Origin: a virus
DNA length: 28,010 nucleotides
Direction: 5' to 3' (one strand)
IMG/VR virus record: IMGVR_UViG_3300031705_000035
Coordinates: 1-28,010 of that record
Under the pieces are notes generated by a model. The model ran no database searches and had not been told where the DNA came from. It saw nothing but the letters and a program-made list of their open reading frames with translations. This document shows, piece by piece, positions 15,413-20,219 of the stretch. How positions within the stretch are numbered: the first letter of the stretch is position 1; each line of letters starts with the position of its first letter. Made by a program: the position numbers and the translations under genes.

Positions 15413-17791
15413 TTACCCCCTCGTTTGATTTTGTTTCTGTATAGCAATACGGGCTCGCATTTGAGCTATGTCTTCTGTACTATCTATACGATCTTGTCCT
15501 AATTGGAAAGTTTGTTGAGCTCGTTGTTGGTCTAGCGCAAGTTTTTGTTGATCGCTCTGTTGATCCGCTTGCATCTCTTGTTCACGTAACTGCAACTCCT
15601 GTTCCTTAATGCGTACAAGTGGGTCATCTTCTTGTGCAGGAGGTTGGGCCTTTTGGTATTCAGCAATTAATTGCGCCTGTATTTGAGCAATCATCTTAGC
15701 GTGTTCCTCAGGCTGTTGCTGTTGTGCCTGTGGGTCCTGTGCCATTTGTTGATCGTGTGCAACTTGGGCTTTCATACCCAAATGTTCGTAAATATGCTTT
15801 TCAAGGGTCATTAAAAGTGGTGGCTGCATTTGTGCAATCTTACTATTCATATACGCAGCGTGTACAGCTATATGACTATCATGATCTTGCTCAGGGAAAG
15901 CTTGCATTTGCCCTTGTCCACCCGCTACCTTACTAGCCTCTTGGTTTTCTGTTGACGGATCTAAAGGCTGCGGCTCGGGCTCAGGGTTTAATATCTGTTC
16001 AATATTATTCACACCTAACGCTTCATAAACACGCTTATATGATTCATACAAATTGTGTAACTCAGGCGCTGCTTGGGCTAATTTCAACTGTTCTTGGGCT
16101 AAAACTACTCTTTGTGACATACTAAAGATGTTAGGGTCACTTACTGGCAGTATATCTACACGACCATCAAAATCTTGGGTTTTTATCTGCCCATCTACGC
16201 CTACTGCATAAGGGTAAGGTGCTGGATCTTCTGAAAATAACCGCCCAAGCATCCTTAACTCTAATTTCATAGACGAATGGAGTCGCTTATGAACGGCACT
16301 TACAATCCTATTGCCACGTTCCAACAAAGCAATCGTAGTACCAACAGGCATTTCTGTATTACCCTGCCCCATACCCATATCGGTTGTCCCTATAAACCGT
16401 TGGGCTGCTTCTACTACGAAACCCATCAACTGGAACAACGTCGCAGAAGGTTCTTTATAAGGTAACGGCATTAAAGAGGCTTTTAAATCACCTCCAGGAA
16501 CATCAACATCCCTAAACTCTCCAGGACTGAGCGGGTTTGCCTCATCTGCAATCCGTAAACCTCTAGCTTTAAATCCTGCTGGCATATTACTCAACGTACC
16601 CGCATCAATTAACTGTCGTAAGTTAGCTGTAGCTGTACGGGACAAGTTCCCAAGCAAGTGAATCAAGCCAAAACCATAAAAACCTAATCCTGGAGTAAAC
16701 TTATACTGCACAAAATGTGGGATTTTATTTTTTCTAGGGTCATCTGGCTTATAATTACGCCGAATAGACAACACTTCGCTTGTATCAAGGCAAACTGTTA
16801 CAATATAAGGGAGCTTTATACCTGTCTCTTCACCCTCTTCATCAACATCGGGGTAATCATCGAGATCCAAAAAGCAATGGCATTCATACAACGTAAACTG
16901 CTCATCCGTACCCGACGGCGATCTGCCCTCAATATCATCATAAGCATCAGTAATAGTGTCAGACCCATCAGTCTTTCCACCTTTTTTCTCCATATCGAGA
17001 TAAAAACCAGACACTTGTAACTTGCGTAACTCATTCTCAGACATCTTTATAGAATGTGTAACACGCTCAGCAGTTTTTAAATCAGTAGCAACATAAGGTA
17101 CAAGCACATCTTCCGCAGGGATAAACTTACTTACAGGGCGTCCCAAACCTTCATCACGGTAAACCTTTTTAAAAGCACTACCCGCCAAACCAAGATAATA
17201 TAACATCTGGTCAAACTCTGGTTCGTACTCTTCCATACCATACATAATTTGGTAATTCATATATTCTTGAACACGTTTCGCCTGTTGCTCAGTTTCAGGG
17301 CTGGGCAAACCAACAATATTAGCTCGCACAGGGCCAGAACTTGGTAACATCTCTTTATAAGCTTGGGCCTGAAACTGTGTAACAGCCTCATTCAACAACG
17401 GGTGGATTACTCCAGTAGCACCATCAAAAGGCTCGGAACGGGTTTCATACCGCATACCAAGCAAATCTAAACCCTTGACATAAGTATCTTCCCAATCATC
17501 ACGGCTATTGCGGTCCTCTTCTACAGACTCTAGCACATAACTCGCAACACCAGTTAACGAAGCATCGGAAACCATCGGGGCTAAATTATCGAAAAAGTTT
17601 TCTGGCTCTTCGCCAAGAGTTTCTTCATCCTCGCCAAAAGTTACTTCAGCCCCATCTTCATTCTCAACAATTTCTACATTTAAAAAATCATCTTCTTGTT
17701 GGGCAAGATTATCATCTTCTATACTTAAGAAATCATTCGGAGCCTGTACTAACGCTCTATCAATATTGCTCGGACGTGGGGGTAGTGCCAT
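15413..17791 (-). CDS. Portal protein
   Basis: 792 aa. After an acidic N-terminus (to ~residue 75) comes the portal core: SVEEDRNSRDDWEDTYVKGL, YETRSEPFDGATGVIHPLLN, EAVTQFQAQAYKEMLPSSGP, then HFVQYKFTPGLGFYGFGLIH and LSRTATANLRQLIDAGTLSN, a wing/stem pattern of podovirus-type portals, with a MGMGQGNTEMPVGTTIALLERGNR channel segment. The last ~150 residues are a Gln/Ala-rich coiled coil (QADQQSDQQKLALDQQRAQQ), the barrel-like extension. It forms the dodecameric ring docking the terminase. Its ATG overlaps the terminase stop by one base (TAATG). Confidence 0.9.
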   Translation of the reverse strand: MALPPRPSNIDRALVQAPNDFLSIEDDNLAQQEDDFLNVEIVENEDGAEVTFGEDEETLGEEPENFFDNLAPMVSDASLTGVASYVLESVEEDRNSRDDWEDTYVKGLDLLGMRYETRSEPFDGATGVIHPLLNEAVTQFQAQAYKEMLPSSGPVRANIVGLPSPETEQQAKRVQEYMNYQIMYGMEEYEPEFDQMLYYLGLAGSAFKKVYRDEGLGRPVSKFIPAEDVLVPYVATDLKTAERVTHSIKMSENELRKLQVSGFYLDMEKKGGKTDGSDTITDAYDDIEGRSPSGTDEQFTLYECHCFLDLDDYPDVDEEGEETGIKLPYIVTVCLDTSEVLSIRRNYKPDDPRKNKIPHFVQYKFTPGLGFYGFGLIHLLGNLSRTATANLRQLIDAGTLSNMPAGFKARGLRIADEANPLSPGEFRDVDVPGGDLKASLMPLPYKEPSATLFQLMGFVVEAAQRFIGTTDMGMGQGNTEMPVGTTIALLERGNRIVSAVHKRLHSSMKLELRMLGRLFSEDPAPYPYAVGVDGQIKTQDFDGRVDILPVSDPNIFSMSQRVVLAQEQLKLAQAAPELHNLYESYKRVYEALGVNNIEQILNPEPEPQPLDPSTENQEASKVAGGQGQMQAFPEQDHDSHIAVHAAYMNSKIAQMQPPLLMTLEKHIYEHLGMKAQVAHDQQMAQDPQAQQQQPEEHAKMIAQIQAQLIAEYQKAQPPAQEDDPLVRIKEQELQLREQEMQADQQSDQQKLALDQQRAQQTFQLGQDRIDSTEDIAQMRARIAIQKQNQTRG

Positions 17792-19257
17792 TAATAATAC
17801 TTCCTTATCCTAGGACCTGTATCCTCTTCCTCATAATCTTCGGGGTGTTGGATAAAGCCTCCTTCTCTGAATCTGCGTAAAGCCTGTGTTACAGTATCAA
17901 CATAATCATCATGCTCTCCAGCAGGGAAAGCAGCACACTCTTCAATAACTTCCTCGGCCCATCTAGTATCTGGAGCCCACACTAAACCACTTTCAAGCAA
18001 AGGCGCAACTGAATTCACTCGAGTAAATTTATCATTGCCTCTACTCGGGCTGTAATTCTGCACTGGTATACCCATAGCTCTCAACTCTTGGGTTAACGGC
18101 ATCCCCGAAGCTTTCGCCTCAATTAAAACACACTCAGGGTCCCAATACTTATACTCTTCTAACGCTCGCCTACGCAAATCAGGAAAATCCCATCTACCAC
18201 GGGAAGCATCAACAAGAATAATGTTCGGCGGTTCACCCTCCTTAGGATAAAAAACACCCCATGTAGTTATCGCGCTATAATCAGCAGACTCTTTTTTACT
18301 GAAAGCCGTATCATAACTCTGCATAATATACTCCAAAGGCGGCAACTCTTTTTTCTCCCAACGCTTCCACCACTCTCGCTTTAAAATAGCAGACTGTTCA
18401 CTCGTCGGGTTTTGCTGCCACTGAGCTTCCCACTTACCTACCGATAAACTTCCCTTGACAGAAAGTAAATCTTCCTTTTTCCAATACTCTCCCCACAACG
18501 GCTCATCAGTCTCAGGCATCAAAGCAGGGAATTCAACAACCTCCCACTTATCTGCCAAAACATCTCGCGCCTGTTGCTTCAACAACTTACCCGTTAAATC
18601 ATTTTCTGCCCATCGGGTCATAATAATCACAATAGACCCTCCAGGTTGTAAACGCTGTCTCGGGCCAGAAGTATACCACTCATAAGCATGCTCCATAGCC
18701 GTAGGGCTCAACGCATCCTGCTCACTATGGGGGTCGTCAATAATTAACAAATCCGCTCCACGTCCAGTAACCGCACCGCCAACTCCCGCAGCAAAATACT
18801 CACCACCCTTTGAAGTCTCCCAACGTCCCGCAGCCTGACTGTCCGCTCGCAACTCCACATCAAATATTTTTTTGTACTCAGGCGAATTCATCAAGTTACG
18901 GGTCTTACGTCCAAATCTAAACGCCAACTCCGCAGTGTGGGTAGTCTGCATAATCTTCAACGTAGGCTTACGTCCCATCAACCACGCAGGTAATAAATAA
19001 CTTCCGAATTCAGATTTCGTGTGCCGTGGTGGCATATTCACTATTAATCGCTTCAAATCACCACGGGCCAAACGGTTGAACTTCTCAGCCATAATCTTAT
19101 GGTGGCGTCCATTAATAAAATCTTCCCAAACAACTTTTGTAAATTCCATAAAATCTTCACGCGCTAACTCAGATTCACTGATTTCCTTAGCTCGGTCTAA
19201 TAAATTTGCGAATTTCTTTAAATGCTCTTCTGGGACATTTGTAAGGTCAAGGGTCAT
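17791..19257 (-). CDS. terL: Terminase large subunit
   Basis: 488 aa. ATPase domain: adenine-side helix HHKIMAEKFNRLARGDLKRL, Walker A-like MPPRHTKSEFGS near residue 75, and Walker B LLIIDDPHSE near residue 170, followed by the coupling segment IVIIMTRWAENDLTGK. RNase H-like nuclease domain: YDTAFSKKESADYSAITTWG (first Asp), CVLIEAKASG (second acidic residue) and HDDYVDTVTQALRRF (third). It packages DNA into the prohead through the portal ring. The start ATG at 19257 has no recognisable SD, unlike most genes here. The terminase small subunit is not adjacent but about 2.8 kb upstream. Confidence 0.95.
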   Translation of the reverse strand: MTLDLTNVPEEHLKKFANLLDRAKEISESELAREDFMEFTKVVWEDFINGRHHKIMAEKFNRLARGDLKRLIVNMPPRHTKSEFGSYLLPAWLMGRKPTLKIMQTTHTAELAFRFGRKTRNLMNSPEYKKIFDVELRADSQAAGRWETSKGGEYFAAGVGGAVTGRGADLLIIDDPHSEQDALSPTAMEHAYEWYTSGPRQRLQPGGSIVIIMTRWAENDLTGKLLKQQARDVLADKWEVVEFPALMPETDEPLWGEYWKKEDLLSVKGSLSVGKWEAQWQQNPTSEQSAILKREWWKRWEKKELPPLEYIMQSYDTAFSKKESADYSAITTWGVFYPKEGEPPNIILVDASRGRWDFPDLRRRALEEYKYWDPECVLIEAKASGMPLTQELRAMGIPVQNYSPSRGNDKFTRVNSVAPLLESGLVWAPDTRWAEEVIEECAAFPAGEHDDYVDTVTQALRRFREGGFIQHPEDYEEEDTGPRIRKYY

Positions 19258-19300
19258 ATATTATAAATACATCGAAAAATTTCAAAGGGCAATGAACCTA

Positions 19301-19323
19301 TAATCAATACACACTATAGGGGG
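19301..19323 (+). promoter_or_regulatory. T7/K11-type phage promoter-like sequence on the plus strand
   Basis: Contains ACACACTATAGGGGG. The segment CACTATAGGG equals the core of the T7 promoter, and CACACTATAGGG the core I remember for the K11 promoter. The -17 to -8 part fits less well, and no phage RNA polymerase gene is in this window. It points rightwards, antisense to every gene here, toward the G-rich tract and the GA-free block. Confidence 0.35.
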
Positions 19324-19440
19324 TACGTCATCTAGGCTTTCCGTTGAGCACAGTTCACTATCCACGCAAAATGTTTTTGGTACTCGAAGAAATATCCAGA
19401 ACTTGGTTATAGCTGACGCCACAACCAAAGGTCGTCCACA

Positions 19441-19466
19441 GGGGGGGTGGTAGGGGGTGGGGTGGG
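19441..19466 (+). other. G-quadruplex motif
   Basis: Plus strand: G7, TGGTA, G5, T, G4, T, G3. Four runs of at least three G with loops of 5, 1 and 1 satisfy the standard G4 pattern with very short loops, which favours stability. The minus-strand (mRNA-sense) copy is C-rich. It starts within five bases of the left edge of the GA-free block, 50 bp past the P2 stop. Confidence 0.85.
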
Positions 19467-19484
19467 CTATGGTAGCCAGTGGGT

Positions 19485-19509
19485 GGCTAGGGGTACCTTA
19501 CCCCTAGCC
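19485..19509. repeat. Perfect 11-bp inverted repeat downstream of P2
   Basis: GGCTAGGGGTA, three-base loop, TACCCCTAGCC. It lies 7 bases beyond the P2 stop codon. In minus-strand RNA it forms a GC-rich hairpin but has no U-tract after it, so it is not a classic intrinsic terminator. It could shield the 3' end of P2 mRNA or form a cruciform next to the G4 motif. Confidence 0.8.
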
Positions 19510-19516
19510 GTTGCCG

Positions 19517-19960
19517 TTAGGCTGTAGCCTTGGCTGTAGGCTGTGGCTGTACTACTAGCTGTACGTAGCCTGTACCCCAAACCGCACTGCTAGGGCTGTA
19601 CCCGCCATTTAGCATTGCCATTAGGCACACAGGGCTTTTAGTGCTGTGGCCTAGTGGCTTGGCGGCGTTAAGTATAGCGGCTAGGCTGTTGTTGCCGTTA
19701 ACACCATTAAGCAACCAATTTTGTATAGTTGCGCGTACACCCGTGCCCTTGCCAGTAAAACCAAATGGCACAGGCTGTGCCGCGTTTAGGTTTACATTTG
19801 CAAGTGGCTTAACTTGTACATTGTGCAAGCTACCTGCCGCGTGGGTGTTTACAAAAGCCCACAACTGCGCGTTGGTAATTGCTGTGCCAGTGTTTTGTAG
19901 TGTTACTACTTTTACTGGTGTTGTTGCCTTAGCAACCTTTGTGTTTTTAACTTGTGCCAT
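19517..19960 (-). CDS. P2: unknown-family protein encoded without GA or TC
   Basis: 147 aa from ATG 19960, preceded by AAGGGG seven bases upstream; an alternative GTG at 20023 has no SD. The core QLWAFVNTHAAGS..., PVPFGFTGKGTGVRATIQNW, LLNGVNGNNSLAAILNAAKP, LGHSTKSPVCLMAMLNGGYS, PSSAVWGTGYVQLVVQ aligns end to end with P1 (20380-20838). N- and C-terminal tails are Ala/Thr/Lys/Pro-rich. There is no Asp or Glu, one Arg, and all Ser codons are AGY, because 15 sense codons containing GA or TC are excluded. Where P1 has Asp or Glu, P2 often has Asn. Function unknown; the excess of Lys without acids would allow nucleic-acid binding. Confidence 0.85.
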   Translation of the reverse strand: MAQVKNTKVAKATTPVKVVTLQNTGTAITNAQLWAFVNTHAAGSLHNVQVKPLANVNLNAAQPVPFGFTGKGTGVRATIQNWLLNGVNGNNSLAAILNAAKPLGHSTKSPVCLMAMLNGGYSPSSAVWGTGYVQLVVQPQPTAKATA

Positions 19961-20039
19961 TTTATACCCCTTTACTGGTTTTTGGCTGTAGCCCTTATTG
20001 GCTACCCTTACTTTATTGCACACTTAAATAGGTATTACA

Positions 20040-20048
20040 ATAGTGAAC
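20040..20048 (-). promoter_or_regulatory. GTTCACTAT motif upstream of P2
   Basis: The minus-strand 9-mer GTTCACTAT lies 80 bp before the P2 ATG. An identical copy lies 59 bp before the P1 ATG (20897-20905). The only GA between 19437 and 20173 (at 20045) is inside this motif. It could include a -10 element (TATTGT here, TATACT at P1) or a phage-specific promoter core. Confidence 0.45.
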
Positions 20049-20063
20049 TTGTATTATTTATAA

Positions 20064-20120
20064 TTATTTTAACACGCCATAAATACCTACTATTATAAGT
20101 AGTATAATAATTACGTACAT
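20064..20120 (-). CDS. 18-residue hydrophobic micro-ORF
   Basis: ATG 20120 to TAA 20064 encodes MYVIIILLIIVGIYGVLK, one short hydrophobic segment with a Lys at the end. The upstream sequence GGAGCAGGAA gives a strong SD at six bases. It lies between the GTTCACTAT motif and the iteron block. A membrane-active micropeptide or a leader peptide controlling P2 are possibilities. At this length chance cannot be excluded, but the only two TC dinucleotides of the region sit in its SD. Confidence 0.45.
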   Translation of the reverse strand: MYVIIILLIIVGIYGVLK

Positions 20121-20219
20121 TTCCTGCTCCTGTGTTGTTGTTGTTTACTTACTTTATTGCAACGTTTGCCAGTGACCAAGTTTTATTTGGCTGACCTGAT
20201 TTTATAAGACGGAGAGAAA

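Follow-up and report, generated by a model that had tools for sequence, protein, structure and literature searches.

Purging of GA dinucleotides from one small gene unit in an uncultured marine phage family

Why should a phage dispense with the dinucleotide GA, on both strands, in one small segment of its genome? The question is raised by a virus fragment from IMG/VR, here called the window (the whole analysed stretch of 28,010 nt), in which an island of 737 nt at positions 19437-20173 contains GA only once (20045) and TC only twice (20122 and 20128). The mononucleotide expectations are ~37 and ~53, respectively. AG and CT are unaffected in the same segment (37 found and 37 expected for AG, 52 and 53 for CT), and the longest GA-free and TC-free runs of the entire window (630 and 687 nt) both lie inside it, the runners-up being 202 and 166 nt. 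Our recount agrees with the numbers and coordinates of the three exceptions given in a preliminary description of this DNA. The island, defined by letter counts and assigned no strand, is kept in relatives, and we will show that an uncultured marine phage family has purged GA on both strands of one small gene unit. Below, W denotes the window's own sequence and L-numbers the loci of relatives; promoters and transcription starts are predictions, several of them weak.

The content of the island is a minus-strand unit made up of a micro-ORF and a gene called P1; it adjoins the paralogue P2 and lies just upstream of terL. P1 (19517-19960, minus strand) encodes a protein of 147 residues that lacks Asp and Glu altogether, and its coding sequence has 0 GA and 0 TC. 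P2 (20380-20838, minus strand, 47% identity to P1) has the usual GA/TC content and served as an internal control, and the terminase large subunit gene (terL, 17791-19257, minus strand) was used as the control for divergence. Besides P1 and P2, the window encodes an SU10-type portal and adaptor, TerL and TerS. Repeats of the GATGATTGATGA type, dense in GA/TC, lie directly beyond the island and also upstream of P2 (20210-20265 and 20960-21130). Past the P1 stop there is a terminator-like hairpin, GGCTAGGGGTAAGGTACCCCTAGCC (19485-19509, minus strand), whose U run is absent in the window.

The AlphaFold2 model of P1 has a confident fold (pLDDT 85.5). No credible match to it was obtained in Pfam, PHROGs, the PDB by sequence or a fold search, where the best hit (VIA, Z 4.3) is not meaningful, and Rfam gave nothing reliable on the DNA. 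The P1/P2 family has 187 matches in viral contigs, and none in phage isolates or in a bacterial genome set, the latter searched with one pattern. Judged by TerL, the nearest isolates are two pelagiphages (HTVC027P and HTVC023P) and the phages 023Pt_psg01 and DSL-LC04, and the island is absent from all of them.

The micro-ORF (20064-20120, minus strand) would encode a hydrophobic, membrane-like peptide of 18 residues, MYVIIILLIIVGIYGVLK. It has counterparts upstream of P1 in relatives: a hydrophobic ORF of 15-30 codons occurs there in 68 of the 83 relatives tested, purged or unpurged, and the 18-codon ORF is therefore probably a real micro-gene. Its ATG (20120) comes directly after the Shine-Dalgarno (SD) sequence GGAGCAGGAA (20121-20130, minus strand), the two GAs of which are the exceptions at 20122 and 20128.

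The possibility that chance, low complexity or an assembly artefact made the island can be regarded as negligible, since we found no points in its favour and dozens of contigs from different metagenomes share the zone, with sequences that have diverged and yet are all GA/TC-free.

The extent of the purge was examined in 96 distinct P1 genes from relatives. It is exact (0 GA, 0 TC) in 29 of them, while 9 are GA-free (0-1 GA) with 6-23 TC, 14 have 0-1 TC with 2-5 GA, about 29 show a mild depletion that chiefly affects GA, and three (L184, L185 and L207) are near normal. P2, on the other hand, never falls below 15 GA and 16 TC. GA and TC are the only depleted dinucleotides (observed/expected 0.01 and 0.00), every other one lying between 0.63 and 1.48. 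Against sequences in which the codons of each protein were replaced at random by synonymous ones, the free class has z-scores between -3 and -9 for GA and between -2.5 and -6 for TC. Among 773 genes on 15 contigs, only P1 orthologues have fewer than a quarter of the expected optional GAs. There is one island per genome (in G008 it appears at both contig ends, as expected of a circular contig), and outside it both words are present at normal levels, so a genome-wide under-representation was not found. In most relatives the P1 orthologue is located just before terL. The purge is thus shown to act on codon choice, leader, trailer and the protein itself, from which all Asp and Glu have been lost.

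In the P1 tree, purge states are intermingled at short distances, which indicates that they change often. No clear candidate emerged for a gene co-occurring with the purged state, the undepleted contigs being fragments. The clade L036-L050 has the fullest islands, with up to 862 nt free, and a separate upstream P2 was not detected in its loci.

It is also necessary to ask if mutation rather than selection could be responsible. P1 diverges very rapidly at silent sites: third-position divergence is 0.24 in P1 and 0.010 in terL for the pair L068/L069, and 0.20 and 0.014 for W/L015. Over the P1 region, silent divergence exceeds that of the adjacent terL by factors between several and some tens (also for L092/L093 and L038/L040), with the protein strongly conserved, and pairs with a common P1 allele but different terL are almost never seen. 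This turnover may reflect allele replacement, local mutation (hypermutation) or both. P2 is likewise quicker to diverge than terL in close relatives (third positions 0.11 vs 0.014 for W/L005).

A silent divergence that is many times greater in P1 than in terL, between phages that are otherwise almost the same, is what one would expect if targeted hypermutation, by a TC deaminase or by error-prone repair at GA/TC, eroded the P1 sites. We nevertheless consider this explanation very improbable. TCs of undepleted relatives correspond to TA, GC, AC, TT, CC, AA or AG in purged ones, with TT making up ~13-15%, and GAs correspond to AA, GC, CA or GT. Because TC is replaced by many dinucleotides and not mainly by TT, selection is indicated and not deamination; TC deamination was dropped on this mixed spectrum, which lacks a directional substitution at the target word. 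Furthermore, GA is selectively retained in Asp/Glu codons and SD sequences, the free islands of W and L015 differ by 50 changes of which none passes into GA or TC, and dN/dS of P1 is ~0.02-0.2.

We then consider where the remaining GAs and TCs are found. In 43 distinct nearly GA/TC-free islands, 68 of the 106 residual words (64%) fall into four functional classes, namely Asp/Glu codons (46), the SD zone (12), TTGAC -35 boxes (5) and TTCAC(T/A) (5). In undepleted P1 genes the same classes account for 225 of 1065 (21%), a difference with a Fisher p of ~3e-19 when relatedness is ignored. Counted per gene, and again ignoring shared ancestry, the drop is ~130-fold for optional coding sites (from 27.3 to 0.21), 7-fold for Asp/Glu codons, 4-fold for GAs of the SD and 6-fold for TTCAC, and TTGAC shows none. 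The proposal in the preliminary description that such residues mark functional elements under opposing selection is thereby borne out, and the comparison with relatives that it suggested refutes a random placement.

The exception at 20045 lies within GTTCACTAT (20040-20048, minus strand), a probable operator-like element in the promoter region of P1. A second copy is located upstream of P2 (20897-20905, minus strand) and a third, in the opposite orientation, in the terL leader (19353-19361, plus strand), where relatives keep it as ATAGTGAAC. Three exact copies in the window compare with 0.19 expected, and none of 100 shuffles reached this number; with one mismatch allowed there is no enrichment. 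Within the island the motif is retained by W, L015 and L016, and it is gone in the very close relative L017/L006. In L007, L025 and L029 it sits in the spacer between the -35 and -10 boxes of the predicted promoters, the copy in L025 being inverted. A plain -35 box is ruled out by this spacer position, which together with the inversion and the further copies ahead of P2 and in the leader of terL suggests, at the level of sequence, an operator-like motif instead. Read on the minus strand, the window's exceptions would thus comprise a single TC, which belongs to a promoter motif of operator-like character, and two GAs, which belong to the SD of a micropeptide. The preliminary description had placed them in a promoter-like motif and an SD; the SD assignment stands, and the motif looks like an operator and not like a -35 box.

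The same description held that these elements cannot function without GA. In this strict form the idea gains from the enrichment of residues in such elements, but it is very improbable. Elements of the same kind are usually purged as well: in the window itself P1 is preceded by the SD AAAGGGG, and most near-free relatives have AAAGGG or AAAGGGG at this place. In many purged relatives the -35 box is predicted to read TTTACA or TTGTAA in place of TTGACA. The SD of the micro-ORF contains GA in W, L015, L016 and L053 and is GA-free in six loci (L014, L056, L058, L060, L154 and L201), and L014 and L017/L006 are without one or both of the window's exceptions. Given the GA-free SDs and -35 boxes of relatives and an island lacking GTTCACTAT, the exceptions are costly, not impossible, to remove. 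The three in the window would then be tolerated, since their removal would cost regulation or translation, without being indispensable.

We now come to the level at which the purge operates. Some loci are purged on the coding strand only: L164 has 0 optional GAs vs 9.8 expected and 23 TCs vs 27.5 expected, and L007 and L192 have 0 GA with 17 and 16 TCs, respectively. At 35 loci the avoidance of GA is clearly stronger than that of TC, and the clear reverse is seen only at L009/L010. The sense-strand word is absent from the coding transcript: purged genes of every class, those purged on the coding strand alone included, have 0-1 optional GA. The residual density per 100 nt is lowest in the predicted leader (0.26 GA, 0.07 TC); it is 0.67 GA and 0.89 TC in the -10/spacer region, 0.61 and 1.94 over a 40-nt stretch above the -35 box, and normal further upstream (3.07 and 7.00). 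A constraint at the RNA level is favoured by the coding-strand-only purging and by the strictest purge being in the 5' leader.

Our preferred reading, which we regard as plausible although somewhat short of an even chance, is that GA is selected against, in the transcript and on its complementary strand, by a nuclease that reads this word, RNA being the most likely substrate. The transcript of the micro-ORF and P1 would be under strong selection for zero GA and, in many lineages including that of the window, also for zero TC. We infer as agent an endoribonuclease with specificity for GA in the sense strand, active in infected cells. It could be an RNase that the host uses in abortive infection, or an enzyme of RNA decay from either phage or host. 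With other RNA being cut, a message free of GA would still be translated, and it is at this stage that P1 or the micropeptide would exert its action. The avoidance of TC could be due to GA in an antisense transcript or to a second enzyme cutting at UC. That the transcript, having lost the word entirely, down to the Asp and Glu of the protein, is immune to a GA-dinucleotide-specific nuclease, so that micropeptide and P1 are expressed while other RNA is destroyed, is a tentative proposal, to be held with some reserve; if it is true, the residual GAs map sites that are indispensable or costly to change. In these genomes, many of them fragments, no candidate RNase came to light: a search for the RegB family gave no match, yet the controls were silent as well, and for the ArfA family nothing exceeded the cut-off, with one match below it in HTVC027P. 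The RNA model is weakened by the partial purging of promoter DNA and by the many lineages in which neither strand has escaped the purge.

In the main alternative, an enzyme reading GA in double- or single-stranded DNA must spare the segment. At L038, L042, L045 and L050 the purge runs 60-160 nt beyond the intrinsic terminator, up to a C-tract and a conserved non-coding block; mRNA as the only target is thus insufficient without readthrough, and a DNA element would suit. In the window, the C-rich tract that forms the 3' island edge in relatives is at 19438-19470 (minus strand), and the block before terL at 19265-19437 (minus strand), with a hairpin at ~19402-19430 and a TAGGTTCATTG core that ends at 19300 and occurs as a single copy per contig. 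The sequence of the hairpin varies in relatives and its pairing is kept. Across 19265-19437 and its equivalents, the non-coding stretch between P1 and terL measures 170-200 nt and has C-tracts. As a conserved element between terS and terL, abutted by the purged segment, it is a candidate packaging site or origin.

The agent at the DNA level could be a 2-bp nuclease or nickase, a GA-specific base modification (DpdA/dPreQ0-like), a CRISPR PAM (TC/GA) or primase start sites; a DNA-level agent of whatever kind is second in our ranking, possible but rather doubtful. In its favour are the purging of both strands, a zone that takes in the promoter and passes the terminator to the C-tract and hairpin block, and the existence, judging by a title cited in PMC11008142, of a strict-GA-motif DNA modification in phage iggy. 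It is opposed by the coding-strand-only purging of L164, L007 and L192, by a purge that is strictest in the leader and looser in the promoter, and by the normal level of GA in the remaining genome. In addition, a search for dpdA (TGT family, PF01702) gave no match in 22 related contigs, all classed as linear and many of them fragments; the control gave a match in each of 14 genomes.

Whether RNA, as we prefer, or DNA is read, the purge is reproducible and the remaining GAs are mostly where the gene needs them, from which it follows that some unseen agent must read GA. The purge recurs and decays repeatedly and affects codons, leaders and protein, and the agent, be it nuclease, modification or immunity, is strong and works on abundant marine phages. 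From the residual GAs and TCs one can read, as from a saturation screen done by nature, at which sites function prevails over the purge, and the free, strand-restricted, partial and undepleted orthologues render the question testable.

We know of no process that requires a gene unit to be without GA on either strand. HTVC023P/HTVC027P-type pelagiphages and DSL-LC04 (57-61 kb), the closest isolates with 60-64% in TerL, have similar terS-terL intergenic genes; a P1/P2 relative was not detected in them and the GA/TC-free island is absent.

By analogy, three precedents may serve as leads only. Cas13b orthologues are RNases that prefer GA or UC dinucleotides, and the collateral cleavage preferences of Cas13 are AU, UC, AC or GA (PMC9312194). 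SAR11 cells infected by HTVC027P lose their rRNA signal (PMC11066056), this phage being a distant relative without P1. The third is the GA-motif DNA modification of phage iggy (title cited in PMC11008142). A DpdA 7-deazaguanine modification as in iggy (Iggyvirus/Queuovirinae) would share the dinucleotide and the reading of each strand; here, however, none of the 22 related contigs, many of them fragments, gave a DpdA/TGT match, and such a modification would not lead one to expect a purge confined to one strand. RNase-resistant mRNAs (MazF/ACA-type interferases; Cas13, PMC9312194) are similar in that the absence of a short word would immunise a transcript, whereas here the RNase is putative, UC is missing too and the zone is partly not obviously transcribed. 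Finally, in the avoidance of restriction sites by phages (genome-wide survey, PMC6286503), selection likewise frees phage DNA of the word that a hostile enzyme recognises. In the known cases the avoided words are restriction recognition sites, and the avoidance extends across genomes, while in the present family the word has two letters and is removed to zero, from one gene unit only and in a strand-separable manner.
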